From the NCBI GenBank assembly GCA_902561795.1, contig CACERG010000020.1:1-33197 (forward strand): a stretch of 33,197 nt of DNA, given 5' to 3'. The notes beneath the pieces were generated by a model. It saw only the letters and a program-made list of their open reading frames with translations. It had not been told where the DNA came from and ran no database searches. Below, one piece after another: positions 1 to 25,300 of the stretch (positions are counted from its first letter, which is position 1; the number at the start of each line of letters is the position of its first letter). The translations under genes were made by a program, and so were the position numbers. This DNA is from an uncultured Bacteroidota bacterium. GTDB taxonomy: Bacteria > Bacteroidota > Bacteroidia > Flavobacteriales > Flavobacteriaceae.

Positions 1-1192
1 CTTTGGTAAAAATCTAAATCCTAAAATTGGATTGGCTGTGGGATTAATGAATTATATTGGAGTTGATAGCTTAAGTCCTGAAAATTTAAAAAAGGTATTT
101 TATAACCTTGGTGCTGAATATAGTTTTCAAACATCCTCCGATGGTGAAGAGACCTCAGTTTCTATAAGTGGACTGAGTGAAAATATGGAAGCTTCCATTA
201 AGCTTTTTGAAAATTTATTAATTAATCCTATTACAACACAAGAGGTTGTGGATAAATTGGTGGAACGTTTAATTAAATCTCGATTAGATGCAAAAAAGGA
301 TAAAAATATAATTCATAGGAGACAATTGTTATCTTATAGTATTTATGGTGAAAAAAATCCAGTTTCTGATATTTTAACGCCTACTGAGTTAAAAAAAATC
401 AAACAAGAAGAATTAATAGAATTGATCAAATCATTATCAAGTTATTCCCATCGTATAATATACTACGGTAATAAGGATAAAAACTCACTAACATCTCTTA
501 TCAAAAAGTACCACAAAATACCGATCAAATTTTTGGAGGTAAAAAATAAAATTAAAAAATACAAGGAAAAAGATTACAAAGACAATTACGTTTTCTGGAC
601 AAATTTTGACATGGTACAAACTGAAATTATACTTCTCTCTAGGCTTGAGCCTTTAGATAATGAAAAAACAGCAGCAATTAATTTATTTAATCAGTACTTT
701 GGTGGTGGTATGAACTCTATAGTTTTTCAGGAAATTAGAGAAGCTCAAGGCTTAGCTTATGCTGTTTTTTCTAATTACAGTCAGGCGAGCAAAACTGACC
801 GATCAGATTATCTATTATCGTACGTGGGTGTTCAAAATGATAAGCAAAGTGAAGCTTTATCCTCTATGTTTGGGTTGATTAATGAACTACCTAAATCAGA
901 GCAAGCCTTTGAAATAGCAAAAAAAGCTATTTTAAATAAAATAGAAAGTGAGCGCATTACTAAATCATCCGTTTTATCATACTATTTAAGTGCAGAAAAA
1001 AAAGGTGTTGATTATGATATAAGAGAAAAAATTTATGATGAGGTCAAAACTATGACACTTGAGAAATTAAAAAGATTTCATGAAAAATATATAAAGGAAA
1101 AGCCTCACAATATATTGTTGATAGGAAATCGTGATAATATAAATTTTAAAAATTTGAAAAAAATACGGTACAATCAGGGAGATTTCTCTTGA
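1..1192 (+). CDS. M16 family zinc metallopeptidase, C-terminal part (5' truncated by window edge)
   Basis: The reading frame is open from base 2, so this is the 3' part of a longer gene; about 396 residues are visible. The stretch around 'YFGGGMNSIVFQEIREAQGLAY' positions (bases about 690-760) is the hallmark of an M16 peptidase C-terminal domain: a Gly-rich turn, then an R-E-A-x-G-L-A-Y motif that helps form the substrate chamber. No HxxEH zinc site is present here; in this family it lies in the N-terminal half, so it would be upstream of the window. Bacteroidota M16 proteins of this type are usually exported, two-lobed proteases of about 900 or more residues. The first in-frame start-like codon (TTG at 32) is internal and should not be taken as the start. 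The gene converges with nqrF, 45 bases away, with no obvious hairpin terminator between them. Confidence 0.85.
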   Translation, partial: FGKNLNPKIGLAVGLMNYIGVDSLSPENLKKVFYNLGAEYSFQTSSDGEETSVSISGLSENMEASIKLFENLLINPITTQEVVDKLVERLIKSRLDAKKDKNIIHRRQLLSYSIYGEKNPVSDILTPTELKKIKQEELIELIKSLSSYSHRIIYYGNKDKNSLTSLIKKYHKIPIKFLEVKNKIKKYKEKDYKDNYVFWTNFDMVQTEIILLSRLEPLDNEKTAAINLFNQYFGGGMNSIVFQEIREAQGLAYAVFSNYSQASKTDRSDYLLSYVGVQNDKQSEALSSMFGLINELPKSEQAFEIAKKAILNKIESERITKSSVLSYYLSAEKKGVDYDIREKIYDEVKTMTLEKLKRFHEKYIKEKPHNILLIGNRDNINFKNLKKIRYNQGDFS

Positions 1193-2540: not shown

Positions 2541-3157
2541 TTATATTTTAATTCCCATAAAACTCATAAATCCCAAAGCCATAAGTCCCGTAATAATAAA
2601 AGTAATACCCAGGCCTCTTAATGGTGCAGGTACATTTGAATAAGTAATTTTTTCTCGAATAGCAGCTATAGCTAGAATTGCAAGCAACCACCCTACACCA
2701 GAACCCAATCCATAAATTGCCGATTCTGTTATTCCTGAAAAATCTTTTTGCTGCATAAATAATGACCCTCCAAGTATGGCACAGTTAACTGCAATTAGTG
2801 GCAAAAAAATTCCTAAAGCTCCATATAGGGCAGGAGCAAATTTTTCAACAACCATCTCGACTAACTGAACCATAGAAGCAATAACAGCTATAAACATAAT
2901 AAAGCTTAGAAAACTTAAATCCAGATCAGCATAGCTTTATCAAACCAAGAAAGAGCACCTGGCCTTAGAAGATATGTATCAAGTAAAAAATTTATGGGTA
3001 CTGTTATTGCTAAAACAAATATGACTGCAAAGCCTAAACCTACTGCTGTCTTAACAGTTTTAGAAACAGCTAAATAAGAACACATTCCTAAGAAATAGGC
3101 GAAGATCATGTTTTCAACAAAAATACTTTTTACAAATAGATTTAAATATGATTCCAT
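2541..3157 (-). pseudogene. nqrE: Na+-NQR subunit E, split by a one-base frameshift
   Basis: Two adjacent reading frames together make one NqrE. Bases 2915-3157 give the N-terminal part ([19 protein letters not shown]..., with Cys26). Bases 2541 to about 2930 give the rest ([18 protein letters not shown]..., with the conserved VNCAILGG cysteine). The family has about 200 residues and runs straight through this join. The frame change must fall in roughly 2917-2938. One extra A in the AAA at 2938-2936 (minus strand) would give ...[17 protein letters not shown]... and a protein of about 205 residues. NqrE and NqrD each contribute cysteines to an intramembrane iron-sulfur centre. Here those cysteines fall on opposite sides of the break, so neither half should work alone. 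All other nqr genes are intact. A sequencing or assembly error, or a very recent mutation, is the likeliest explanation. Confidence 0.9.
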
Positions 3158-13684: not shown

Positions 13685-14644
13685 ATGCAAAAAATAACTA
13701 CTGATATAAATCTTGCAATAAATTCTTTAAAAATTGGAAAACTTGTTGCAATACCAACAGAAACTGTTTATGGATTAGCTGGAGACGCATTAAACGAAAA
13801 AGCAGTAGAGCAAATATTTATTCTAAAAAAAAGGCCTAAAAACAACCCATTAATTTTACATATTTCAAGCTATGAGAAACTTCAAGAAATTGTAAAAAAT
13901 ATACCTTTTAAGGCGAAAAAACTAGCAAAAAAGTTTTGGCCAGGCCCACTAACTTTGGTACTTGAAAAGAAAAATAAAATCTCAGATGCTGTTTCGGCTG
14001 GAAAATCAACTATTGCTGTAAGAGTCCCTAATCATCCTTTAACGCTGAAGTTATTAAATTCCATTGACTTCCCCGTTGCTGCTCCAAGTGCAAATCCCTC
14101 TGGATTCATAAGTCCAACATCTGCCTCACATGTTTCGAATTTTTTTAAAGATGGTCTTGATGTAATTCTAAATGGTGGATTATGTAGTAAAGGTTTAGAA
14201 TCAACAATTATAGGTTTTGAAGATGATAATCCAATACTTTATCGCCATGGTGCAATTCCAATTAGTGATTTAGAAGATTGTATCGGAACAATAGGTAAAA
14301 AGATTAAAAATGATCTTAATCCCAGTTCACCAGGTATGTTTTCGCGACACTATTCCCCGAGGACTCCTATAATTCTAATCAACAATTTATCCAAGTACAT
14401 TTATGAAAATAAACATAAAAAAATAGGTGTTTTAAGCTTTGAAAATAAGGAAGGCTTTACATTAGCTACTAAACATGAAATACTTTCTAAAAGCGGTGAT
14501 ATTAATGAGGCTGCTAAAAATTTTTATTCAGCCCTTCACTCATTAGATAGTAAGAACTTGGATATTATTATAACAACACTTTTACCAGAAAAAGGGTTAG
14601 GGAAAACAATTAATGATAGATTAAAAAGAGCTGTAGCTAATTAG
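13685..14644 (+). CDS. L-threonylcarbamoyladenylate synthase (Sua5 type)
   Basis: Makes threonylcarbamoyl-AMP from threonine, bicarbonate and ATP, the first step of the universal t6A37 tRNA modification. The YrdC/TsaC domain spans about residues 1-200, with the KIGKLVAIPTETVYGLAGDA motif region near the start, a KKRPKNNPLILH basic motif, FWPGPLTLVL and AAPSANPSGFISPTSA. A C-terminal Sua5 domain (about 220-319) makes it the longer Sua5 type rather than the short TsaC. I take the ATG at 13685 (319 residues); a TTG two codons upstream is less likely. Its stop overlaps the stop of the convergent membrane-protein gene by 8 bases at the palindrome CTAATTAG. Confidence 0.94.
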   Translation: MQKITTDINLAINSLKIGKLVAIPTETVYGLAGDALNEKAVEQIFILKKRPKNNPLILHISSYEKLQEIVKNIPFKAKKLAKKFWPGPLTLVLEKKNKISDAVSAGKSTIAVRVPNHPLTLKLLNSIDFPVAAPSANPSGFISPTSASHVSNFFKDGLDVILNGGLCSKGLESTIIGFEDDNPILYRHGAIPISDLEDCIGTIGKKIKNDLNPSSPGMFSRHYSPRTPIILINNLSKYIYENKHKKIGVLSFENKEGFTLATKHEILSKSGDINEAAKNFYSALHSLDSKNLDIIITTLLPEKGLGKTINDRLKRAVAN

Positions 14645-15227
14645 TAAGCTCAAAATTATTTTCACTAATTACTTTGTAATAGTTTGCTAAGCTGAGATTA
14701 TGCCATGGCATCACTACAAAAACTCCTACAATAAAAAACAGAATACCAAGAATATACCACGGTATAAAATGCAGATGCAACTTGAATAGCTGCATTTTAT
14801 GTCCATCCATAATTTTCCAACTTTTCTCTATAGCCTTGTGAAAGGAAATTTCAGGGTTTTCAGCAATTATATAGTATGTCATAGATAATCCCAAACTCAA
14901 TATTATACCTGGAAGAATAAAAAAAAATAATCCAATCAACGTAATTAAGTTAATTGATAAAAAAGCCAATAAAATATTTAATAATGGTTTAAAGCCGTCA
15001 AATATGTAATTAAAAGATGGATTAGATCCTTTAGAAATTTTTAAAAAGTATATACATAAACCCAACTGTAACGGACCTGCCAATAAAATTGATAGTAATT
15101 CACCAAAGGCATTTAACTCAGAAGGAACTGAAATAATTAATGCATAAAAAATACAAATGACTGAAGATAATAGCCAACTAGGCTTAAGTTGATTTCTTGA
15201 ATTGTAGATTAATTCTGACAAATTCAC
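14637..15227 (-). CDS. Small multi-spanning membrane protein, DUF975-like
   Basis: A 196-residue hydrophobic protein with about five membrane segments (roughly 20-36, 42-60, 80-120 in two spans, 150-175). The pattern IIAENPEISFHKAIEKSWKIMDGHKMQLFKLHLHFIPWYILG (residues about 120-160) resembles the DUF975 family of uncharacterised integral membrane proteins, where 'A-hydrophobic-S-x-x-hydrophobic-M-x-G' precedes an F-W-rich helix. No function is known. It starts 12 bases after the DAHP synthase/chorismate mutase stop, so it probably belongs to the Phe/Tyr operon as its last gene. A role in aromatic amino acid handling is only a guess from position. Confidence 0.72.
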   Translation of the reverse strand: MNLSELIYNSRNQLKPSWLLSSVICIFYALIISVPSELNAFGELLSILLAGPLQLGLCIYFLKISKGSNPSFNYIFDGFKPLLNILLAFLSINLITLIGLFFFILPGIILSLGLSMTYYIIAENPEISFHKAIEKSWKIMDGHKMQLFKLHLHFIPWYILGILFFIVGVFVVMPWHNLSLANYYKVISENNFELTN

Positions 15228-15239
15228 AAATTATAATGT

Positions 15240-16325
15240 TTAATTTTTATTTAAAATTTTATCCTGTTTATTAATTGATTCCTGATGAATTGCTTTAAAA
15301 ACTCTCAATATAAATTCTTCAGACAATTCACGCTCTTGTCCATCTAAAATCATTTTACCTAATATTTCATTCCACCTCTTATTTTGGAGAACAGCAACGT
15401 TATTATCTTTCTTCAATAATCCTATTTCCTTTGCAATTTTCATTCGCTTTCCTAATGCATCAAGAAGTGTTTGATCAGCAACATCAATTTGAGCTCTTAG
15501 AGAACCTAGCTTATTTTTGTATGCCTCTTCTTCAGTTGTTTTATTTCTCACTTTTAAATCTCGCATAATCTCAATTAAACGTGAAGGGGTAACCTGCTGT
15601 TTAGCATCGCTCCAAGCATTATCTGGATCCCAATGAGATTCTATCATCAATCCATCAAAGTTGAGATCTAAAGCTGTTTGTGAAATATCAAAAATCAAAT
15701 CTCTGCGTCCTGAAATATGTGAAGGGTCGCATATCATTGGAAGGTCTGGAAAACGATTTTTTACCTCAATTGCTATTTGCCATTCAGGATTATTTCGGTA
15801 TTTAGTTTTCTCATAAGTTGAGAATCCGCGGTGAATTAGACCTAACTTTCTAATCTTTGCGCTATGAAGACGTTCAACGCCTCCTAACCATAGCGCTAAG
15901 TCTGGATTAACTGGGTTTTTTACCAAAATAATTTTCTCAGTTCCTGCCAAAGCGTCAGCTAATTCTTGCATAATGAAAGGACTAACTGTAGACCGGGCTC
16001 CAATCCATAAAATATCAATGTCATTTTCAATTGCTAATTTAACATGATCTTTATTTGCTACCTCTGTAGCAGTTAATAAACCTGTTTGCTCTTTTACTTT
16101 TTTTAGCCAGTTCAATCCTATTGCTCCTACACCCTCAAACATACCGGGGCGTGTTCTTGGTTTCCAAATTCCCGCTCTGTATACGCTAACATCACTATCT
16201 TTCAACTGATTTGCGATCTTTAACACTTGTTCTTCTGTTTCAGCGCTACATGGACCACCTATAACCAGGGGATGACTAAGTTCAAAATCATTCAACCAAG
16301 TGCGCATGTTCTTTTTATTTTCCAT
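15240..16325 (-). CDS. Bifunctional DAHP synthase / chorismate mutase
   Basis: A fusion joining the entry step of the shikimate pathway (phosphoenolpyruvate plus erythrose-4-phosphate to DAHP) to the branch step toward Phe/Tyr (chorismate to prephenate). Residues about 1-265 are the DAHP synthase, of the short KDO8P-synthase-like type, with VIGGPCSAE (21-29), KPRTRPGMFEG, WIGARS, KNPVNPD, LIHRGFS, CDPSHISGRRD and ESHWDPD. Residues about 275-350 are an all-helical AroQ chorismate mutase (LRAQIDVADQTLLDALGKRM...). Fused at the C-terminus, the mutase commonly serves as the feedback sensor in this enzyme class. It follows tyrA by 24 bases. The fusion is typical of Bacteroidota. Confidence 0.95.
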   Translation of the reverse strand: MENKKNMRTWLNDFELSHPLVIGGPCSAETEEQVLKIANQLKDSDVSVYRAGIWKPRTRPGMFEGVGAIGLNWLKKVKEQTGLLTATEVANKDHVKLAIENDIDILWIGARSTVSPFIMQELADALAGTEKIILVKNPVNPDLALWLGGVERLHSAKIRKLGLIHRGFSTYEKTKYRNNPEWQIAIEVKNRFPDLPMICDPSHISGRRDLIFDISQTALDLNFDGLMIESHWDPDNAWSDAKQQVTPSRLIEIMRDLKVRNKTTEEEAYKNKLGSLRAQIDVADQTLLDALGKRMKIAKEIGLLKKDNNVAVLQNKRWNEILGKMILDGQERELSEEFILRVFKAIHQESINKQDKILNKN

Positions 16326-16349
16326 TTTATTCTGTCTTTTTTATTTGAT

Positions 16350-17198
16350 TTATTTTATTCCCTCTAAAATTCCTTTGATGGCATTAGTCTGCTCAATTTT
16401 CTCATATATTGACTTGTAATCATTTGCCTGTATTAATTTTTTAAATTCTTCCAAATTTGAAATATATTCTGTCAATACGTCTAAAATATTTTTTTTATTC
16501 TGAATAAAAATTGGTGCCCACATAGAGGGAGAGCTTTTTGCTAATCTCACAGTAGAGGCGAAACCACTTCCAGCCATATCAAAAATTGCTTTCTCATCTT
16601 TTTCTTTCTCCATTACAGTTTTACCAAGCATAAATGAAGAAATATGAGAAATATGTGAGACATATGCTATATGTTGATCGTGTTCAATAGGATCCATCTC
16701 TTGAAGTTTCATTTCCATATTTTTAAACCATTGCACTGCCCATTCCAATAGATCAGGTCTTGTTTTATTTACTTCACACAAAATTTGAGCTTTCCCTTTG
16801 AATAGATTTTTGTTTGCAGCTGAAGGTCCAGAAAACTCTGTTCCTGCAATTGGGTGAGTAGCTAAAAATTGATTACGCTTAGAATGCAATTTTACTTTTT
16901 CACATATCATTTCCTTAGTTGACCCAACATCAATTAAAAGGGCGTTATCATTTATTTGGTCTAAAAGTGTCAAAATTATTTCTAAAACTGCATTAACAGG
17001 TATAGCTAAAATAATTACATCCATATGAGAGTAATTTAAAGGTGTCAAGGATTGATCAATAATGCCTAATTTGATTGCTTGACTTAAGTGTTCGGGATTA
17101 TTATCCATCCCAAATAAACTACAATCTCTTATACTTTTTTTTGCTGATAAAGCAAATGAGCCTCCAATTAATCCAAGACCAATTACACCTATTTTCAT
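16350..17198 (-). CDS. tyrA: Prephenate dehydrogenase
   Basis: Oxidatively decarboxylates prephenate to 4-hydroxyphenylpyruvate for tyrosine synthesis. It has 282 residues. The N-terminal Rossmann motif is GVIGLGLIGGSFALS (3-17); the family's catalytic region reads FLATHPIAGTEFSGP (about 110-124), and the C-terminal helical dimer domain contains DPIEHDQHIAYVSHISHISSF with the conserved His. There is no ACT or chorismate mutase domain. Its start overlaps the stop of the upstream aminotransferase gene by 4 bases, a sign of translational coupling in the operon. Confidence 0.95.
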   Translation of the reverse strand: MKIGVIGLGLIGGSFALSAKKSIRDCSLFGMDNNPEHLSQAIKLGIIDQSLTPLNYSHMDVIILAIPVNAVLEIILTLLDQINDNALLIDVGSTKEMICEKVKLHSKRNQFLATHPIAGTEFSGPSAANKNLFKGKAQILCEVNKTRPDLLEWAVQWFKNMEMKLQEMDPIEHDQHIAYVSHISHISSFMLGKTVMEKEKDEKAIFDMAGSGFASTVRLAKSSPSMWAPIFIQNKKNILDVLTEYISNLEEFKKLIQANDYKSIYEKIEQTNAIKGILEGIK

Positions 17199-18343
17199 GA
17201 TTTAAAACGATTTATAGCTTCAATTATAATTTCTTCTGAAACACAAAGTGAAAAACGAATATAGCCCTCACCTTGCATACCAAATACAGTTCCTGGTGTT
17301 ATAAATATATTTTTTTCATAAAGTATTTTATCAACGAATTCTTCCGAACTAATATTACCTTCGGGAATTTTAGCCCACAAAAATAAACCAACACTTTTTG
17401 ACTCGATTTTAGCCCCAATTTTATTAATTAGTGTTAAAATAAGCTCCTTTCTTTTATTATAGACTTCATTTAATTTTTCAAACCATTCAGGTTTCATTTT
17501 TAATGCAGCTATAGCACCTTTTTGAATACCAAAAAACATTCCTGAATCCATATTGCTTTTAACTTTTAGGACTTCACTTATAACTGATTTTTTTCCAGAT
17601 AACATTCCTATTCTCCAACCAGCCATATTAAAAGACTTACTTAAAGAATTTAATTCAACTGCAACTGACTCAGCACCAGGTATGGATAATATACTTTTTG
17701 GTTTTTTAGTTAAAATAAAACTATATGGATTATCATTTACTAAAAGAATATTACGTTCATAAGCCCATTTAACCAAAAAACTAAAAGTAGATTCTAAAAA
17801 TTCAGCTCCTGTTGGCATATGAGGGTAGTTTAGCCACATGATTTTTACTTTTGTAGTATCTAAATTTTCTAATTCCTTAAAATCAGGTTGCCAATCATTA
17901 GAAAGTTTTAAGTCATATGTAATTGCTTTAGCTTGCATTAATCTTGTTACAGAGGCATAAGTTGGATAACCAGGATTAGGAATCAAAACTTCATCTCCAG
18001 GATTAAGATAAGCCATAGATATATGCATTATTCCTTCCTTAGAACCCATGAGCGGTAGAACTTGCGAATCTGGATCCAAATCTACATCATAATGGGTCTT
18101 GTAAAATTCTGTTACAGATTTTCTAAGTTCTGGTATTCCCTTATAATTTTGGTACATGTGGGCCTTAGGCTCAAGTATTGATTTTTCAAGAGCTTTTACT
18201 ATATCAGGGTGAGGATCTAAATCTGGACTGCCGATTCCCATATTAATTATTGGTTTTCCGACCTTTATCATTTCTCCTACTTCTCTCAGCTTTCTTGAGA
18301 AATAGTATTCTTTTATATTATTTAATCTTTTAGCCGTTTTCAT
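17195..18343 (-). CDS. PLP-dependent aminotransferase, probably aromatic (Phe/Tyr)
   Basis: A class I/II aminotransferase of 382 residues, with the start NNIKEYYFSRKLREVGEMIKVG, then GIGSPDLDPHP (about 37-47), NPGYPTYASV, NYPHMPTGA (about 172-180), the Schiff-base Lys in NSLSKSFNMAGWRIGM (about 232-247) and RFSLCVS at the C-terminus. Placed between pheA and tyrA with 4-base overlaps on both sides, it most likely converts phenylpyruvate and 4-hydroxyphenylpyruvate to Phe and Tyr, closing both branches. On sequence alone it could equally be annotated as an LL-diaminopimelate or methionine aminotransferase-like enzyme. Confidence 0.88.
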   Translation of the reverse strand: MKTAKRLNNIKEYYFSRKLREVGEMIKVGKPIINMGIGSPDLDPHPDIVKALEKSILEPKAHMYQNYKGIPELRKSVTEFYKTHYDVDLDPDSQVLPLMGSKEGIMHISMAYLNPGDEVLIPNPGYPTYASVTRLMQAKAITYDLKLSNDWQPDFKELENLDTTKVKIMWLNYPHMPTGAEFLESTFSFLVKWAYERNILLVNDNPYSFILTKKPKSILSIPGAESVAVELNSLSKSFNMAGWRIGMLSGKKSVISEVLKVKSNMDSGMFFGIQKGAIAALKMKPEWFEKLNEVYNKRKELILTLINKIGAKIESKSVGLFLWAKIPEGNISSEEFVDKILYEKNIFITPGTVFGMQGEGYIRFSLCVSEEIIIEAINRFKS

Positions 18344-19173
18344 TTTTGATGCTGGGTAAATTCCCCAAGAATTTTGAACTCTGATGCCATTATTGAAATT
18401 AATTTTTTTGCTTTTAAGTAATGTCCAAGCTCATCAAAGGTAATATCTACAAAAAAAGCATATTTGCCAGGAGTCTCAATTACAGGTAAGGATTGAATTT
18501 TTGTTAAGTTGAGCTGACAATCACTCATAACATTCAATATTGCGGCTAAACTACCTCTTTGATGATCTAAAATAAATTTAAGGGCAGCTTTATTGATATT
18601 TTCTTTTGAAATTAAATTACCATCATTGTTAAGAATGACAAATCGAGTGACATTATTTTTAATTGTCTGTATAGAGGAAGCGAAAATTGACAAATTATAC
18701 ATTTCGGCAGCTTCCTTGCTCGCTATAGCACCAATACCTTTCATGTTATTTTTAAATATTCTTTGTGCTTCTTCGGCGGTGTCTTCTGATTCAACAAGAC
18801 GTATATGAGGATAATTATTAAAAAAACTTTTGCACTGCAAAAATGCCATAGGGTGAGAGTAAACTTCTTTAATGTCATTAATTTGCTGTCCCTTTAACCC
18901 CATAAAATTATGGTTTATACTTAATCCGTATTCTCCAATAATTTTTACATTATTCTGATCAATTAGTGCATAATTTGGTATTATGGAACCTGCTATTGAA
19001 TTTTCAATCGCCATTACAACATAATCAGCCTCTTCTTTGATGAGTTTAGTTACAGTTTTATCAAAAGTGTCACATAATATTAAAGAAAGGTTTTTCCCAA
19101 AATATCTTTCAGCAACAATATGATGAAAGGATCCCTTCTTACCTTGTATTGCAATGTTTTTCTTAGTTTTCAT
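18340..19173 (-). CDS. pheA: Prephenate dehydratase
   Basis: Converts prephenate to phenylpyruvate on the way to phenylalanine. It has 277 residues and is monofunctional; the mutase lies on the DAHP synthase instead. The catalytic domain shows GKKGSFHHIVAERYFG (11-26), AIENSIAGSI (55-64), HPMAFLQC (107-114) and the key TRF triad at 176-178. An ACT domain follows (about 196-270). Its usual Phe-binding ESRP motif reads QSLP (227-230), so feedback by Phe may be altered. It is the first gene of a five-gene operon and is preceded by a Tyr/Phe-rich leader peptide and a terminator hairpin ending 3 bases before its ATG. Confidence 0.95.
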   Translation of the reverse strand: MKTKKNIAIQGKKGSFHHIVAERYFGKNLSLILCDTFDKTVTKLIKEEADYVVMAIENSIAGSIIPNYALIDQNNVKIIGEYGLSINHNFMGLKGQQINDIKEVYSHPMAFLQCKSFFNNYPHIRLVESEDTAEEAQRIFKNNMKGIGAIASKEAAEMYNLSIFASSIQTIKNNVTRFVILNNDGNLISKENINKAALKFILDHQRGSLAAILNVMSDCQLNLTKIQSLPVIETPGKYAFFVDITFDELGHYLKAKKLISIMASEFKILGEFTQHQK

Positions 19174-19182
19174 TATAAAAAA

Positions 19183-19207
19183 AAAGTCCTGAACGGATCA
19201 GGACTTT
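19183..19207 (-). terminator. Intrinsic terminator (attenuator) before pheA
   Basis: A perfect 10-bp inverted repeat: AAAGTCCTGA and its complement TCAGGACTTT around a 5-base loop. On the minus strand it is followed by a U tract running to 19177 (nine T in all, three of them in the stem). This is a canonical rho-independent terminator placed inside the pheA leader, with only three bases between the U tract and the pheA ATG. Confidence 0.9.
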
Positions 19208-19244
19208 ATATAAAATGTTTTCATAATACTACACAGACCTGATC
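19196..19244 (-). promoter_or_regulatory. Antiterminator pairing of the pheA attenuator
   Basis: GATCAGG at 19244-19238, inside the leader peptide frame, is the exact complement of CCTGATC at 19202-19196, which spans the 5' arm and part of the loop of the terminator. This pairing excludes the terminator. A ribosome stalled on the early Tyr codons (about 19279-19260) would leave GATCAGG free, so antitermination forms. A ribosome that reaches the stop at 19229 would cover it, so the terminator forms. A weak CTTC (19259-19256) to GAAG (19249-19246) pairing could serve as the protective 1:2 hairpin. Confidence 0.75.
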
Positions 19245-19294
19245 TCTTCAACGTAGAAGTAATAGTAGTTATTGTAGTATGAATATAATTTCAT
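19229..19294 (-). CDS. Tyr/Phe-rich attenuator leader peptide of the pheA operon
   Basis: A 21-codon reading frame from ATG at 19294-19292 to TAG at 19231-19229. The first 14 residues are MKLYSYYNNYYYFY; seven of 21 codons are Tyr (positions 4, 6, 7, 10, 11, 12, 14) and one is Phe (13). It lies about a dozen bases after the predicted transcription start and about 20 bases before the terminator, upstream of genes that make Phe and Tyr. This is the classic layout of a ribosome-stalling leader, as in enterobacterial pheL or trpL. The excess of Tyr over Phe suggests tyrosyl-tRNA as the main signal. The frame is seen directly; translation and function are inferred. Confidence 0.85.
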   Translation of the reverse strand: MKLYSYYNNYYYFYVEEIRSV

Positions 19295-19312
19295 TAATTA
19301 ATAATTTCTTGA

Positions 19313-19343
19313 CAAAATTACTATTGCTTTATTCAAAAACAAA
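19313..19343 (-). promoter_or_regulatory. Promoter of the pheA operon
   Basis: On the minus strand TTTG (19343-19340) is followed after exactly 19 bases by TAATTTTG (19320-19313), a full match to the Bacteroidota pattern TTTG-N19-TAnnTTTG. Transcription would start near 19307, giving a leader of about 130 bases before pheA that contains the leader peptide and terminator. Confidence 0.75.
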
Positions 19344-19388
19344 CTTTTGAAGTTTTTTTTTAATATTACGTTATCTTAATTTATCGCA

Positions 19389-20261
19389 TTGAACATAAAA
19401 AATAATAATCTTTATTATATCATAATTTTAAATCTGGCTATGTTGTTTATAAGTACCTCAGGCCCATTGGGAAGATATATTTCTCTCCCGCCTCCAATTA
19501 CAATATGGTTTCGTTCATTGATTGCTATTTTATGTTTAATTATTTATGCCTTATTAAAAAAAACTTCATTTAAAATAAACTTAAATAATCATGGCTTAGC
19601 TATATTACTTAGCGGACTATTTATGAGTATTCACTGGATTACTTATTTTTTTGCTTTGCAATGGAGCAATGTCACTGTAGGTATGTTATCTCTTTTTACT
19701 TACCCTATTATTACAGTTTTACTAGAACCATTATTTATATCTGTAAAATTAAAAGCAAGACATATTATTTTTGGAATTTTAATTTTAATTGGTGTATTCT
19801 TTTTGGTACCTAATTTTGATTTTAATAATAAAGCTACTCAAGGTTTATTAATGGGACTATTTTCTGCTCTCGCGTACTCTTTAAGAAACTTAATTTTAAA
19901 GAAACACAACTCTATGGCAGATGGATCAATACAAATGATTTATCAACTCTTTGTCGTTATAATAATTTTATTACCTGTATTTTTTATTTATTCTGACTAT
20001 CAAATTCAACCTGATTTACCTTATCTACTTATGTTAGGATTTATTACAACAGCATTAGGCCACACGCTTTTTCTTTCAAGTTTCTCGCATTTCAGTATCA
20101 GTACTGCAAGTATTATAAGTAGTATCCAACCACTTTTTGGTATCATTATGAGTGTAATTTTATTAAATGAAATTCCAAATTTTAAAAATGTTGTAGGTGG
20201 AATTATAATTCTTAGCACAGTGGTAATTGAAAGCATAAAATCAAAAGAAAAAAATTCCTAA
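19389..20261 (+). CDS. EamA-family (drug/metabolite) transporter
   Basis: A 290-residue inner-membrane protein with about ten hydrophobic segments in two five-helix EamA repeats (about 8-135 and 150-285). Landmarks are the SGPLGRYISLPPPITIWFRSLIA region after helix 1, SIHWITYFFALQWSNVTVGMLSLFTYPIITVLLEPLF in the first repeat, and the matching GHTLFLSSFSHFSISTASIISSIQPLFGIIMSVILLNE in the second. Substrate is unknown; relatives export amino acids, sugars or metabolites. The only start that keeps helix 1 is TTG at 19389; an in-frame stop lies just upstream. It is followed by gldA after 23 bases and is divergent from the pheA operon. A role in amino acid export is only suggested by that position. 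Confidence 0.85.
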   Translation: MNIKNNNLYYIIILNLAMLFISTSGPLGRYISLPPPITIWFRSLIAILCLIIYALLKKTSFKINLNNHGLAILLSGLFMSIHWITYFFALQWSNVTVGMLSLFTYPIITVLLEPLFISVKLKARHIIFGILILIGVFFLVPNFDFNNKATQGLLMGLFSALAYSLRNLILKKHNSMADGSIQMIYQLFVVIIILLPVFFIYSDYQIQPDLPYLLMLGFITTALGHTLFLSSFSHFSISTASIISSIQPLFGIIMSVILLNEIPNFKNVVGGIIILSTVVIESIKSKEKNS

Positions 20262-20284
20262 TATAAAATGTATATTTATTCCTG

Positions 20285-21178
20285 ATGAGCCTTGAATTAA
20301 AGAAAGTTGCAAAAAGTTTTGGTGCTACAAAAGCCTTGAGTGGAATAAGTTTCACCCTAAAAGAAGGAGAAGTTGTAGGTCTTCTTGGTCCAAATGGAGC
20401 AGGTAAATCAACATTAATGAGAATACTTTCAGGATACTACACAAATTGGGATGGAGATGTAAATTTTTTCGAAAAAAGTTATAGAAATCATCTAAAAAGT
20501 ATCAAAAATGAGGTTGGTTATTTGACTGAAAATAATCCACTATATGCCGATATGTATGTAATAGAATATTTAAAATATGTCGCTGAATTATTTAGACGTA
20601 AAAAAGCTCCAATTAATCAATTAATAAAAAAAACGGGGTTATTAAGTCATTATGACAAAAAAATTAGATTTCTCTCCAAAGGGTATAAGCAAAGAGTAGG
20701 AATTGCAGCTGCACTAATTAACGATCCTAAATTAGTAATTCTTGATGAGCCTACCACAGGTTTAGATCCAAACCAACTCCTTGAAATCAGAAAACTAATT
20801 CGTGAATTGGGTGATAAAAAAATTGTTTTACTATCTACTCATATTTTACAGGAAGTAGATGCAATTTGTGATAGAGTATTAATAATTAATCAGGGAGAAA
20901 TTGTTCTCGACGAAAAATTAAAAAATCTTAGAAAAAATAAAAAGAAAATCATCCAAGTTAGTTTTGATTATCGTGTTGAAACTGTTGCTTTACTTAAAAT
21001 CGAGGATGTAAAACATGTCAGAAATATAGGGGGTTTTAGTTATGAAATAGAAACCAAAGGTAATAAAGATAAACGCTCAGCTATATTTGATTTCGCTAAA
21101 GAAAACGGTTTAAAAATATTAAGTTTAAACCAAAAAAATGAGACTTTAGAAGAACTTTTTAATAGTTTGACTAAATAA
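20285..21178 (+). CDS. gldA: Gliding motility ABC transporter ATP-binding protein GldA
   Basis: The ATPase subunit of the GldAFG ABC transporter, needed for gliding motility in Flavobacterium johnsoniae and often kept in non-gliding relatives. It has 297 residues, with Walker A GPNGAGKST (35-43), signature LSKGYKQR (130-137) and Walker B LVILDEP (150-156), then the switch His in STHILQEVDAICDR. The C-terminal extension (about 215-297, ...FDFAKENGLKILSLNQKNETLEELFNSLTK) is characteristic of GldA. The permease genes gldF and gldG are not adjacent; this is also often the case for gldA in F. johnsoniae-like genomes. Confidence 0.88.
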   Translation: MSLELKKVAKSFGATKALSGISFTLKEGEVVGLLGPNGAGKSTLMRILSGYYTNWDGDVNFFEKSYRNHLKSIKNEVGYLTENNPLYADMYVIEYLKYVAELFRRKKAPINQLIKKTGLLSHYDKKIRFLSKGYKQRVGIAAALINDPKLVILDEPTTGLDPNQLLEIRKLIRELGDKKIVLLSTHILQEVDAICDRVLIINQGEIVLDEKLKNLRKNKKKIIQVSFDYRVETVALLKIEDVKHVRNIGGFSYEIETKGNKDKRSAIFDFAKENGLKILSLNQKNETLEELFNSLTK

Positions 21179-22634: not shown

Positions 22635-23906
22635 TTATATCTGACTAAATGCAGACTCTAAATCAGCAATCAAATCATTAACATCTTCCAAACCTACTGA
22701 TAAACGGATCAAATCTGCAGTTACTCCAGTTGTTTTTTGTGCATCCTCGTCTAACTGTTGATGAGTAGTACTAGCTGGATGAATAACTAAAGATTTTGTA
22801 TCTCCAATATTTGCTAAAATTGAAAATAGTTTTGTGTTATCAGCAACCTTTTTACCAGCTTCAAATCCTTTTTTTAAACCAAATGTGACGATACCACTTT
22901 GCCCTTTTGGTAAATATTTTTGAGCTAGCTTGTTATATTTTGATGATTTTAAACCGGGATAATTTACCCAAGCTACTTCGTCTTTTGTAGAAAGCCATGC
23001 TGCAATTTTTATTGCATTTTCAGAATGTTTTTTCATTCTTATATCTAAGGTTTCTATTCCCTGGATGGTTTGAAAGCTGTTAAAGGGACTTGGAGCACTT
23101 CCTAGATCCCTTAGCCCTTCAACGCGAACTTTTGCGATGAAAGCTATTTTACCGAGTGCTTCATGGTAATTTAAGCCGTGATAACTTGGGTTAGGTTCAG
23201 TAAATTCAGGAAAATTTCCATTACCCCAATTAAATGTTCCAGCATCAATAATAACACCCCCCATACTTGTTCCATTTCCAGTTAGATATTTAGTTAGTGA
23301 GTGTATCACAATATTTGCTCCATGCTCGATAGGATTCAATAAAGCTGGAGATGCGACCGTATTGTCTACAATAAAAGGAACCTTAGCCTTTTTTGCAGAT
23401 TCAGAAATTGCTTTTAAATCTAAAACATCTAGCTTAGGATTTCCTAATGACTCAGCAAAAAAAGCACGTGTATTTGATTTTACAGCTTTTGTAAATTCAG
23501 TTGGATCATCCGGATCTACAAATGTTGTAGTTATTCCAAATCGGGGTAGCGTATTCGACAAAAGATTGTAGGTTCCTCCATACAAACTATTTGATGCCAC
23601 AATATGATCTCCAGTTCTAAGTATTACCATTAGAGAAGTAGCTATTGCTGATGTCCCTGATGCTGTAGCTACAGCTGCAACACCGCCCTCTAATGCAGCG
23701 AGTCGCTGCTCCAGTACATCATTAGTTGGATTGTTTAAACGTGTATAAATGTATCCAGGTTCTGCAAGAGAGAATAAACTCGCAGCATGATCAGAATCAT
23801 TAAATACGTAAGAAGTTGTTTGATAAATTGGAACAGCTTGAGTTCCTTGTGATTTTATTACATCGTGTCCTGCATGTAATGCTTGTGTTGATAATTGTGT
23901 ACTCAT
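22635..23906 (-). CDS. metY: O-acetylhomoserine sulfhydrylase (aminocarboxypropyltransferase)
   Basis: A PLP enzyme of the Cys/Met metabolism family that makes homocysteine from O-acetylhomoserine and sulfide. Its 423 residues match MetY. Seen are the N-terminal [19 protein letters not shown] (26-35), [10 protein letters not shown] (54-63), the PLP-contacting [10 protein letters not shown], and the Schiff-base Lys in [33 protein letters not shown] closes the C-terminus. Its ATG overlaps the metK stop by 4 bases, and metX follows, so direct sulfhydrylation appears to be the route to homocysteine here. Confidence 0.96.
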
Positions 23907-25159
23907 AATTGAAATTTATTTTTAATTAATTTTAAATAATCTAATTTTTCCCAAGTAAATAACTCTACTTCCTTGGTTATTTCACCATTATATGGTGATT
24001 TGAAAGTTTTTTTGACTTTTTGAGGCTGACGCCCCATATGACCATAAGAAGAGGTTTCAAAATAAATGGGGTTTCTTAATTTGAGACGCTGCTCTATAGC
24101 ATAGGGTCTCAAATCAAAGAGTTTCGATGACTTAACTGCAATTTCTTCATCAGAAAGATCTAGTTTTGAAGTACCATAGGTATTTATATTGATGGATATT
24201 GGTTCAATCATTCCTATTGCATAACTAATTTGAACTAGTATTTCGTCAGCTATTCCAGCAGCCGCCAAATTTTTTGCCATGTGCCTTGCAGCATAAGCTG
24301 CACTTCGGTCGACTTTACTTGGATCTTTACCACTGAACGCTCCCCCACCATGAGCTCCTTTACCACCATAAGTGTCAACAATGATTTTTCTGCCAGTCAA
24401 ACCAGTATCTCCATGAGGGCCACCAATAACAAATTTTCCAGTTGGATTTATATGAAATTTTATATCATCCCCAAAAAGTTTCTTTGTATTAAGTGGGAGT
24501 TTACTTTTAACTCTAGGAATTAAAACTTTAATTAAATCGGATTTTATTTTTTCTAGCATCCTATCATCATTATTATCAAACTCATCGTGCTGTGTTGATA
24601 TCACAATTGTATCAACACGTAATGGTTTGTCATTATTATCGTATTCGATTGTTACTTGTGATTTTGAATCTGGACGCAAATATTTAATTAAATTATTTTC
24701 TTTCCGTAAGGCTGAGAGCTCAATTAAAATTTGATGAGAAAGATGAAGAGCAAGGGGAATATATGTTTCTGTTTCATTTGTAGCATAGCCAAACATAATT
24801 CCTTGATCTCCTGCCCCTTGTTTCTCCTTTAATTCTGACTTTACTCCCCTATTTATATCTTGTGATTGTTCATGAATTAATGAAATTACACCACATGAAT
24901 TTCCGCTAAATTGATATGAACTTTTGGTATATCCAATAGAGTTTATGGTATCACGTGCAATAGATTGAACATCTAGGTAAGTTTTACTTTTTACCTCACC
25001 AGCTAGTATAACTTGGCCTGTCGTGACTAGTGTTTCACATGCTACCCTACTGTCAGGATCAAATGCCAGAAAGTTATCCAACAAGGCATCACTTATTTGG
25101 TCGGAAATTTTGTCCGGATGACCTTCACTCACAGATTCTGATGTAAAAAAATATGGCAT
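23903..25159 (-). CDS. metK: S-adenosylmethionine synthetase
   Basis: Makes SAM from methionine and ATP. I place the start at ATG 25159, giving 418 residues beginning [21 protein letters not shown], the standard N-terminus. The open frame runs 38 codons further upstream, but those codons lie over the SAM-II-like aptamer and are not conserved protein. Motifs: GHPDK near residue 15, [12 protein letters not shown] (ATP site), [14 protein letters not shown], and [23 protein letters not shown]. It heads the metK-metY-metX-osmC operon and overlaps metY by 4 bases. Translation is probably lowered by SAM through the upstream riboswitch. Confidence 0.95.
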
Positions 25160-25163
25160 TAAA

Positions 25164-25216
25164 TTGCTTTTTCGGAAGGAATAAACTAAAGCGTTTTTGA
25201 AAAGCAACACTGCTTT
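25164..25216 (-). promoter_or_regulatory. Putative expression platform of the metK SAM riboswitch
   Basis: Two mutually exclusive helices link the aptamer to the metK start. AAAGCA (25216-25211, also the aptamer's 3' pseudoknot strand) can pair with TGCTTT (25206-25201) as a 6-bp hairpin. Alternatively TTGCTTTT (25207-25200) can pair with AAAAGCAA (25171-25164), an 8-bp helix ending four bases before the ATG. SAM binding would hold the first strand and favour the second helix, blocking initiation. A third option, CTAAAGC (25218-25212) with GCTTTAG (25192-25186), also exists. All pairings are seen; the switching logic is inferred. Confidence 0.55.
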
Positions 25217-25261
25217 AGCATTTTTTTTTCGAGGTTTGCAATCAGTCAAATCCTTCCTCGG
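25210..25261 (-). ncRNA. SAM-II/SAM-V-type riboswitch aptamer upstream of metK
   Basis: On the minus strand a 5-bp stem CGAGG (25260-25256) with CCTCG (25234-25230) encloses GGATTTGACTGATTGCAAA. An A-rich linker then leads to GCTAAAGCAG (25219-25210). The ordered core GATTT-A...ATTGCAA...P1'...A-linker...GCTAAA matches the SAM-II aptamer, an H-type pseudoknot, as remembered from the marine metX example. The pseudoknot helix can form here as CTG (25245-25243) with CAG (25212-25210) plus adjacent U-A pairs. Placement before metK, metY and metX agrees with SAM sensing. SAM-V shares this core, so the exact class is open. Confidence 0.82.
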
Positions 25262-25270
25262 TTTGATTTC

Positions 25271-25300
25271 CAAAATTACACTTTTTTTTTATTTGGCAAA
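25271..25300 (-). promoter_or_regulatory. Promoter of the metK operon
   Basis: TTTG (25300-25297) and TAATTTTG (25278-25271) on the minus strand, 18 bases apart, match the Bacteroidota promoter pattern. Transcription would begin near 25265, a few bases before the aptamer's first stem strand at 25260. The -7 octamer is identical to that of the pheA operon. Confidence 0.72.

Follow-up and report, generated by a model that had tools for sequence, protein, structure and literature searches.

The pheA-aminotransferase-tyrA-DAHPS/CM operon in the window, the whole stretch of 33,197 nucleotides that was analysed, is very probably controlled by a classical ribosome-mediated transcription attenuator; from the sequence and from modelled folding we put the probability of this reading at roughly 0.9. 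The earlier note on this DNA had proposed attenuation by a Tyr/Phe leader peptide, with an antiterminator competing against a terminator, and this was supported as the best reading, since relatives keep the frame of aromatic codons, the terminator and an antiterminator complementary to it. The single parts that the note had listed upstream of pheA could also be confirmed. The promoter matches TTTG-N19-TAATTTTG exactly, the translation of the 21-codon frame agrees with a peptide containing seven Tyr and one Phe (Tyr or Phe at 8 of 21 codons), GATCAGG is exactly complementary to CCTGATC, and the 10-bp terminator runs into a tract of nine T. Pfam named all four genes of the downstream Phe/Tyr operon as claimed. 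The positions of all features are given in Table 1.

Table 1. Features of the leader region and of the operon, in coordinates of the window.
Feature	Position	Strand	Basis or remark
Divergent EamA-type neighbour	starts 19389	+	ORF list, Pfam
Intergenic region	between the EamA-type gene (from 19389, +) and pheA (-)		leader parts on the minus strand
Promoter, Bacteroidota type, TTTG-N19-TAATTTTG	19313-19343	-	exact match
Promoter boxes	TTTG 19343-19340; spacer 19 nt; TAATTTTG 19320-19313	-	
Leader peptide ORF, 21 codons, MKLYSYYNNYYYFYVEEIRSV*	19229-19294; stop TAG 19231-19229	-	translation
Regulatory codon run, codons 4-14 (7 Tyr, 1 Phe)	19253-19285	-	sequence
Segment 1, ATACTACA, partner of segment 2 in the complete ribosome-free leader	19273-19280	-	MFE fold
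Antiterminator strand A, GATCAGG, within leader codons 17-19	19238-19244	-	complement of 19202-19196
Segment 2, TGTAGTAT, closing the 1:2 hairpin around A	19226-19233	-	fold
Terminator, AAAGTCCTGATCCGTTCAGGACTTT	19207-19183	-	10 pairs, 4 G-C
Terminator 5′ arm B, AAAGTCCTGA	19198-19207	-	hairpin scan
Terminator 3′ arm C, TCAGGACTTT	19183-19192	-	hairpin scan
U-tract, nine T, the first three overlapping the stem	19177-19185	-	sequence
pheA, prephenate dehydratase	18340-19173	-	PF00800, 3e-57; ACT match sub-threshold
Aminotransferase class I/II	17195-18343	-	Pfam
tyrA, prephenate dehydrogenase	16350-17198	-	Pfam
DAHP synthase fused to chorismate mutase type II	15240-16325	-	Pfam

Strand A pairs with the 3′ part of arm B and two bases of the terminator loop. 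The 7 exact base pairs of this A:B helix are followed by one mismatch and then by 2 further pairs. Segments 1 and 2 form a hairpin of 8 bp in the complete RNA of the window, and the T-run ends 3 nt before the ATG of pheA. The leader of 126 nt folds with -29.6 kcal/mol (z = -4.0), and none of 200 shuffles was as stable. A generic terminator scan of positions 14600-20300 gave no excess (3 found, 2.5 expected from shuffles). As the scan was at chance level it was dropped as evidence, and the weight therefore rests on the stability of the leader fold and on the conserved layout.

The comparison with relatives covered 213 regions upstream of pheA. A named set (L001-L080) holds the best 80 of 90 pheA relatives fetched in a search for close relatives. 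In addition, evenly drawn and overlapping genome sets were searched at the level of the family (60), the order (119) and the phylum (148), which gave a pheA match at the cut-offs in 51, 54 and 128 genomes, respectively; part of these genomes supplied 133 further loci or upstream stretches (L081-L213). The named and the genome sets may share species, and their rows are related by descent. ORFs of 9 to 50 codons were counted as leaders if a stretch of 12 residues contained 7 or more F/Y/W and if they lay no more than 300 nt upstream. ATG-started ORFs of this kind were present in 163 of the 213 regions. Dinucleotide shuffles contained them in 30 of 4260 cases and reverse strands in 2 of 213, and a score of at least 7 was reached by 43 of 11,297 other short ATG ORFs of L001-L080. 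With TTG and GTG starts included, a leader was found in 165 of the 213 regions, among them all 80 named loci.

The distribution of the leader differs between taxonomic levels. Within the same family 64 loci were taken, of which 63 have 150 nt or more upstream, and it is present in 60 of these; it is present in other families of the same order in 8 of 24, in other orders of the same class in 14 of 16 and in other classes in 3 of 29. None of the six loci taken from family f16, with genomes of 0.6 Mb (L136-L138, L196-L198), had an aromatic leader; these reduced genomes keep pheA, as if the switch had been lost with genome reduction. Likewise, no aromatic leader was found in the five loci taken from family f5, where the pheA match is itself weak. 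Three loci that were scored as misses at the order level (L122-L124) carry a weaker aromatic ORF, MNRLENTFNSFYFIYDR, with a score of 5 against the cut of 7. The absence from 26 of 29 loci of other classes is tentative, as several pheA frames there are longer (fusions of at least 380 aa) and their real start codons may be situated further upstream than the tested stretch reaches.

Promoter and operon could also be followed through the relatives. The motif TAnnTTTG, given as the sigma-A consensus in F. psychrophilum (PMC9723704), precedes the start of 53 of 165 leaders by at most 90 nt, where mononucleotide shuffles predict 11.2, and the full TTTG-N17-22-TAnnTTTG is found upstream of 37 of the 165. 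Among the loci of L001-L155 with at least 3.9 kb beyond pheA, tyrA and DAHPS/CM follow in 68 of 68 and the aminotransferase in 65 of 68. The products of the operon, Phe and Tyr, agree with the codons of the leader, which we counted in favour of attenuation.

For the pairings, the best hairpin before pheA was taken in each of the 165 leaders, and 156 passed a filter for strong hairpins. Nine were removed (L013, L018, L027, L131, L142, L143, L146, L154 and L177); as a terminator was found separately for L013, L018 and L027, these are misses of the filter and no true absence, at least at these three loci. Leaving out six identical sequences (150 remaining) and three of at least 110 nt gave an alignment of 147 loci, in which B and C are paired in 93.4% of the cells, whereas 300 shuffles had a mean of 83.0% and a maximum of 84.3%. 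Both sides of B:C are changed in 155 of 1321 cells of these loci, a count which overstates the number of independent events because the rows are related. The arms differ by lineage and A follows them, for instance as GTCCTG/CAGGAT, GTCTCG/CGAGAC, GTCCCG/CGGGAC and AATCCC/GGGATT, and further as GCCTCG/CGAGGC, CCGCTC/GAGCGG and AGCTCC/GGAGCT. In the GTTCCG lineage the partner is CGGAGC in one of four cases and CGGGAC, with one G-U pair, in the other three.

The complementarity score of A and B in the 156 loci had a median of 17 for the own pair, of 13 when B was swapped in from other loci and of 10 when A was shuffled. In this score, as in the measures of spacing, 1:2 pairing and folding, A was chosen as the strand with the best helix to B, a choice that favours A:B, and only one measure placed A blind to B. 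This blind placement, which is based on a motif, comprises 120 distinct A/B rows and misplaces some of them (e.g. part of the GTCCT group), gave 101 double-changed cells, whereas 500 shuffles had 53 on average and 73 at most; 68.3% of the cells were paired, with a shuffle maximum of 65.4%. It replaced a generic MAFFT alignment, which was rejected for A:B as its A column was off by one base between lineages. There, 62.2% of the A:B cells were paired against 60.5% in a control slid by one base and a shuffle maximum of 59.6%, and the 89 double changes were exceeded by the 103 of the slid control. The terminator covaries, and the antiterminator along with it. The mutually exclusive pairing is conserved, apart from L001, an exception among the relatives with one mismatch inside the 7-bp A:B helix.

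The position of A relative to the codons is narrowly kept. In the set of 156 loci, to which the window belongs, the last aromatic codon starts a median of 13 nt (5-95%: 10-16) upstream of A and the aromatic run a median of 44 nt before it. A spacing of 13 nt agrees with where the front edge of a stalled ribosome would lie. Parts, conservation, covariation of B:C and A:B and narrow spacing can all be read from the sequences and their comparison; the outcome for each ribosome position comes from a folding model, in which 14 nt are masked from the first base of the A-site codon, this footprint being assumed. Taken together, spacing and masked folding predict that a ribosome at the control codons leaves A free and that a ribosome at the stop codon covers it.

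When the RNA of the window was modelled as made to B, before C, the antiterminator was predicted for stalls on codons 4, 6, 7, 10, 11 and 12, with -15.4 to -18.6 kcal/mol compared to -13.4 kcal/mol for the lone terminator hairpin. In the complete RNA the predicted antiterminator persists for stalls at codons 6, 7, 10 and 11 (Tyr), whereas stalls at codons 4, 12 and 14 and a ribosome at the stop codon lead to the terminator. Without a ribosome, the complete RNA is predicted to form the 1:2 hairpin and the terminator, and RNA made only to B the antiterminator and not 1:2, so that an untranslated leader may read through; this slightly lowered our confidence in attenuation. Over the 156 loci, 155 are predicted to form A:B ahead of C on no fewer than half of the aromatic codons that were tried, and the terminator is predicted in all 156 with a ribosome at the stop and in 152 without a ribosome (complete RNA only). 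In the full RNA, 64 of the 156 loci are predicted to form A:B for at least one stall codon and 46 for half or more of them, so most loci would have to depend on A:B forming first; in L001 it is predicted at none of seven stall codons. Of the 156 loci, 48 have a best 1:2 helix above the 95th percentile of their shuffles, where about 8 are expected.

By analogy with known attenuators, transcription would start just past the TAATTTTG box and a ribosome would begin to translate the leader ORF of 21 codons. When charged tRNA-Tyr (and tRNA-Phe) runs short, this ribosome would stall in the codon run and cover segment 1, leaving A free. Free A would then pair with B as it emerges, the terminator would not form and the operon would be read. 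If both charged tRNAs are plentiful, the ribosome would reach the stop codon and cover A, B:C would form and transcription would end in the U-tract before pheA. Translation of the leader, stalling, termination and the response to Tyr and Phe would all follow the pattern of such attenuators. A leader that looks right can fail, however: in S. coelicolor, codons upstream of ilvBNC that were candidates for regulation could be changed without effect (PMC1262725), which we counted against the attenuation reading.

The hairpin could instead act mainly on translation, with A:B and B:C opening or closing the start of pheA. This would agree with the T-run (end at 19177) adjoining the ATG (19173) in the window and with a hairpin that abuts the assigned gene start in several relatives, but the long U-tract after the hairpin would be needless for a translational switch. 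Moreover, the hairpin lies well before the assigned start elsewhere (41 nt in L012, 74 nt in L042 and 118 nt in L128), too far to block it, and we regard a mainly translational role as unlikely. Less likely still is an arrest peptide, in which the nascent aromatic-rich chain would bind the free metabolite in the ribosome tunnel as in TnaC. A short peptide of strong composition before a matching operon is what such a mechanism would also show, but arrest peptides are expected to keep fixed residues, as TnaC does, and here the density of Phe/Tyr codons is kept and not the peptide sequence; MKLYSYYNNYYYFYVEEIRSV, MKQNFNFYYTYYFSHQKAG and MTRNYFWNGFYFYFFFKRSTGLF share the layout.

Control of the operon by a metabolite-binding riboswitch or a T-box, with the ORF incidental, is very improbable: the window does contain a SAM-II riboswitch elsewhere, but no family of Rfam 15 reached its gathering score at the leader site, no T-box was matched by Rfam upstream of the operon, and the ORF and the terminator leave little room for an aptamer. 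The best Rfam match was Thr_leader (RF00506) at 19286-19177, with 35.1 bits against a gathering score of 55 (E 3.3e-5 in a 251-base search); Thr_leader codons are Thr/Ile, whereas those of the window are Tyr/Phe. A plain terminator behind a Tyr-rich ORF that arose by chance, with no regulation, is hardly credible either. AT-rich sequence does make Tyr, Phe and Asn codons common and the terminator scan was near expectation, but such ORFs are far fewer in shuffles, on the reverse strand and among other short ORFs, A covaries with B, and the upstream neighbour at 19389 is divergent, so no transcript comes from there for the hairpin to end.

If the operon is attenuated, the question is which amino acids the leader reads. 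The window leader is dominated by Tyr, as the earlier note had said, but this does not hold as the general form. A Tyr share of 86-88% is limited to the window (7 Tyr, 1 Phe) and to its two closest relatives, L001 and L002 (6 and 1); the next highest share among the 165 leaders is 67%. On average a leader contains 3.7 Tyr, 5.2 Phe and 0.5 Trp (n = 165). Trp codons are present in 79 of the 165, and Tyr outnumbers Phe in 22. The usual leader is thus mixed Phe and Tyr, often with Trp in addition, and the check in relatives that had been proposed came out in favour of the aromatic frame with its terminator and complementary antiterminator, Tyr dominance being local. The synthesis of all three aromatic amino acids begins with DAHP synthase. 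Together with the composition of the leaders this suggests that the ancestral form probably reads the aromatic pool, from which the window lineage would have shifted to Tyr. We propose, tentatively and at somewhat less than even odds, that in the window's family, in related orders and in isolated loci from other classes a run of about ten Phe, Tyr and often Trp codons sums several amino acids, so that it senses the aromatic pool as a whole and adjusts a Phe/Tyr operon to which the first enzyme of the pathway also belongs, and that the lineage of the window retuned it to an attenuator with tyrosine as the main input.

Codon choice in the leaders was compared to that in pheA. The share of TAC among Tyr codons is about equal (24% in leaders and 27% in pheA), whereas TTC for Phe (33% compared to 18%) and AAC for Asn (59% in the 165 leaders compared to 29% in the pheA genes) are more frequent in leaders. 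We suspect that RNA pairing underlies this bias; the excess of AAC may stem from the 1:2 hairpin rather than from coding. A second mini-ORF with Phe-Tyr, MKTFYIKS, was observed at 19223-19197 (-) of the window, with its ATG at 19223 and its TGA inside terminator arm B, and the exact ORF is also present in L001 and L002. Mini-ORFs with adjacent aromatic residues number 37 in the 165 leaders, and many of those with another sequence end in FF encoded by the U-tract; MKTFYIKS was rejected as a second leader and is probably due to chance.

Enterobacterial pheL/pheA and trpL/trpE are ribosome-mediated attenuators, and the window has in common with them an ORF rich in codons for the product, a terminator with U-tract, an alternative antiterminator and a matching operon. 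In contrast to them, its leader reads Tyr as well as Phe, and its operon serves both Phe and Tyr and includes DAHP synthase. The host phylum, unlike enterobacteria, lacks Shine-Dalgarno sequences (PMC6847099), so that translation of the leader must begin in another way. A 2021 transcriptome of F. psychrophilum described a conserved 5′ element without Rfam family upstream of pheA in Flavobacteriaceae, and leader-peptide attenuation was suggested there for amino-acid operons (PMC9723704). Gene, phylum and the lack of an Rfam match are the same as in the window, whereas the available text of that study does not describe the peptide with its codons or the competing helices; its supplements may do so. 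The earlier note had been aware of no description of a Tyr-led Phe/Tyr leader in this phylum. This view has to be narrowed, since the pheA element is in print, but no description of a Tyr-led ribosome attenuator was found among the titles and abstract openings searched, mostly of openly accessible literature. Attenuators of Bacteroidetes/Chlorobi were reportedly also treated by Vitreschak in 2004. A survey of 2005 assigns Phe to attenuators and Tyr to T-boxes (PMC1262725), and it would thus be unusual for a ribosome attenuator to respond mainly to Tyr.

Other reports touch on parts of the system. Bacteroid-trp RNA (RF01692), a putative cis-regulatory RNA of Bacteroidetes linked to trp by its name (PMC2864571), is a different family, to which the window has no match. 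Phe/Tyr-containing uORFs at shikimate genes were reported from among five genomes (PMC6429828), and the likeness to the window lies in an aromatic-rich uORF before genes of the shikimate pathway. In Bacteroides thetaiotaomicron, sORFs in long 5′ UTRs were called 'reminiscent of leader peptides' (PMC7366714); they belong to the same phylum and are leader-like, but the example named in the part of the report available is a hypothetical protein gene and not pheA. The kind of attenuator is therefore classical and partly in print, and the multi-aromatic reading and the shift to Tyr are its fresh parts. As far as the sequences tell, a textbook ribosome-terminator switch very probably governs the synthesis of aromatic amino acids in much of the Bacteroidota, in a leader family that the current Rfam library misses. 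The natural series from Phe-rich to Tyr-rich leaders, with or without Trp, lets the relation between codon make-up and sensed amino acid be tested.

Further regulatory elements were observed in this genome and its relatives. A hisG leader with three His codons, MKILLHHAHQFKNYSNEM, has the same layout and lies in the window's own genome (L214 1234-1357, contig C15). Its antiterminator strand CTCAAACG, complementary to a terminator arm, is inside the ORF, and the antiterminator is weaker (-12.7 kcal/mol) than the terminator (-16.7 kcal/mol). With this leader in the same genome, attenuation is likely to be a general strategy. No attenuator was seen when the region upstream of ilvD in this genome was read by eye, and trpE had no match in the genome, which is 81% complete. 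The SAM-II riboswitch of the window (RF01726, 75.1 bits, 25265-25205 on the minus strand) is located directly before the S-adenosylmethionine synthetase gene and inside the 5′ end of the listed frame 23903-25273, so that the true start of this gene is probably further in. Finally, among five loci scanned, L113 contains two Flavo-1 RNAs (RF01705) in the 3.8 kb that surround pheA, at 2698-2775 (+) and 85-160 (-).
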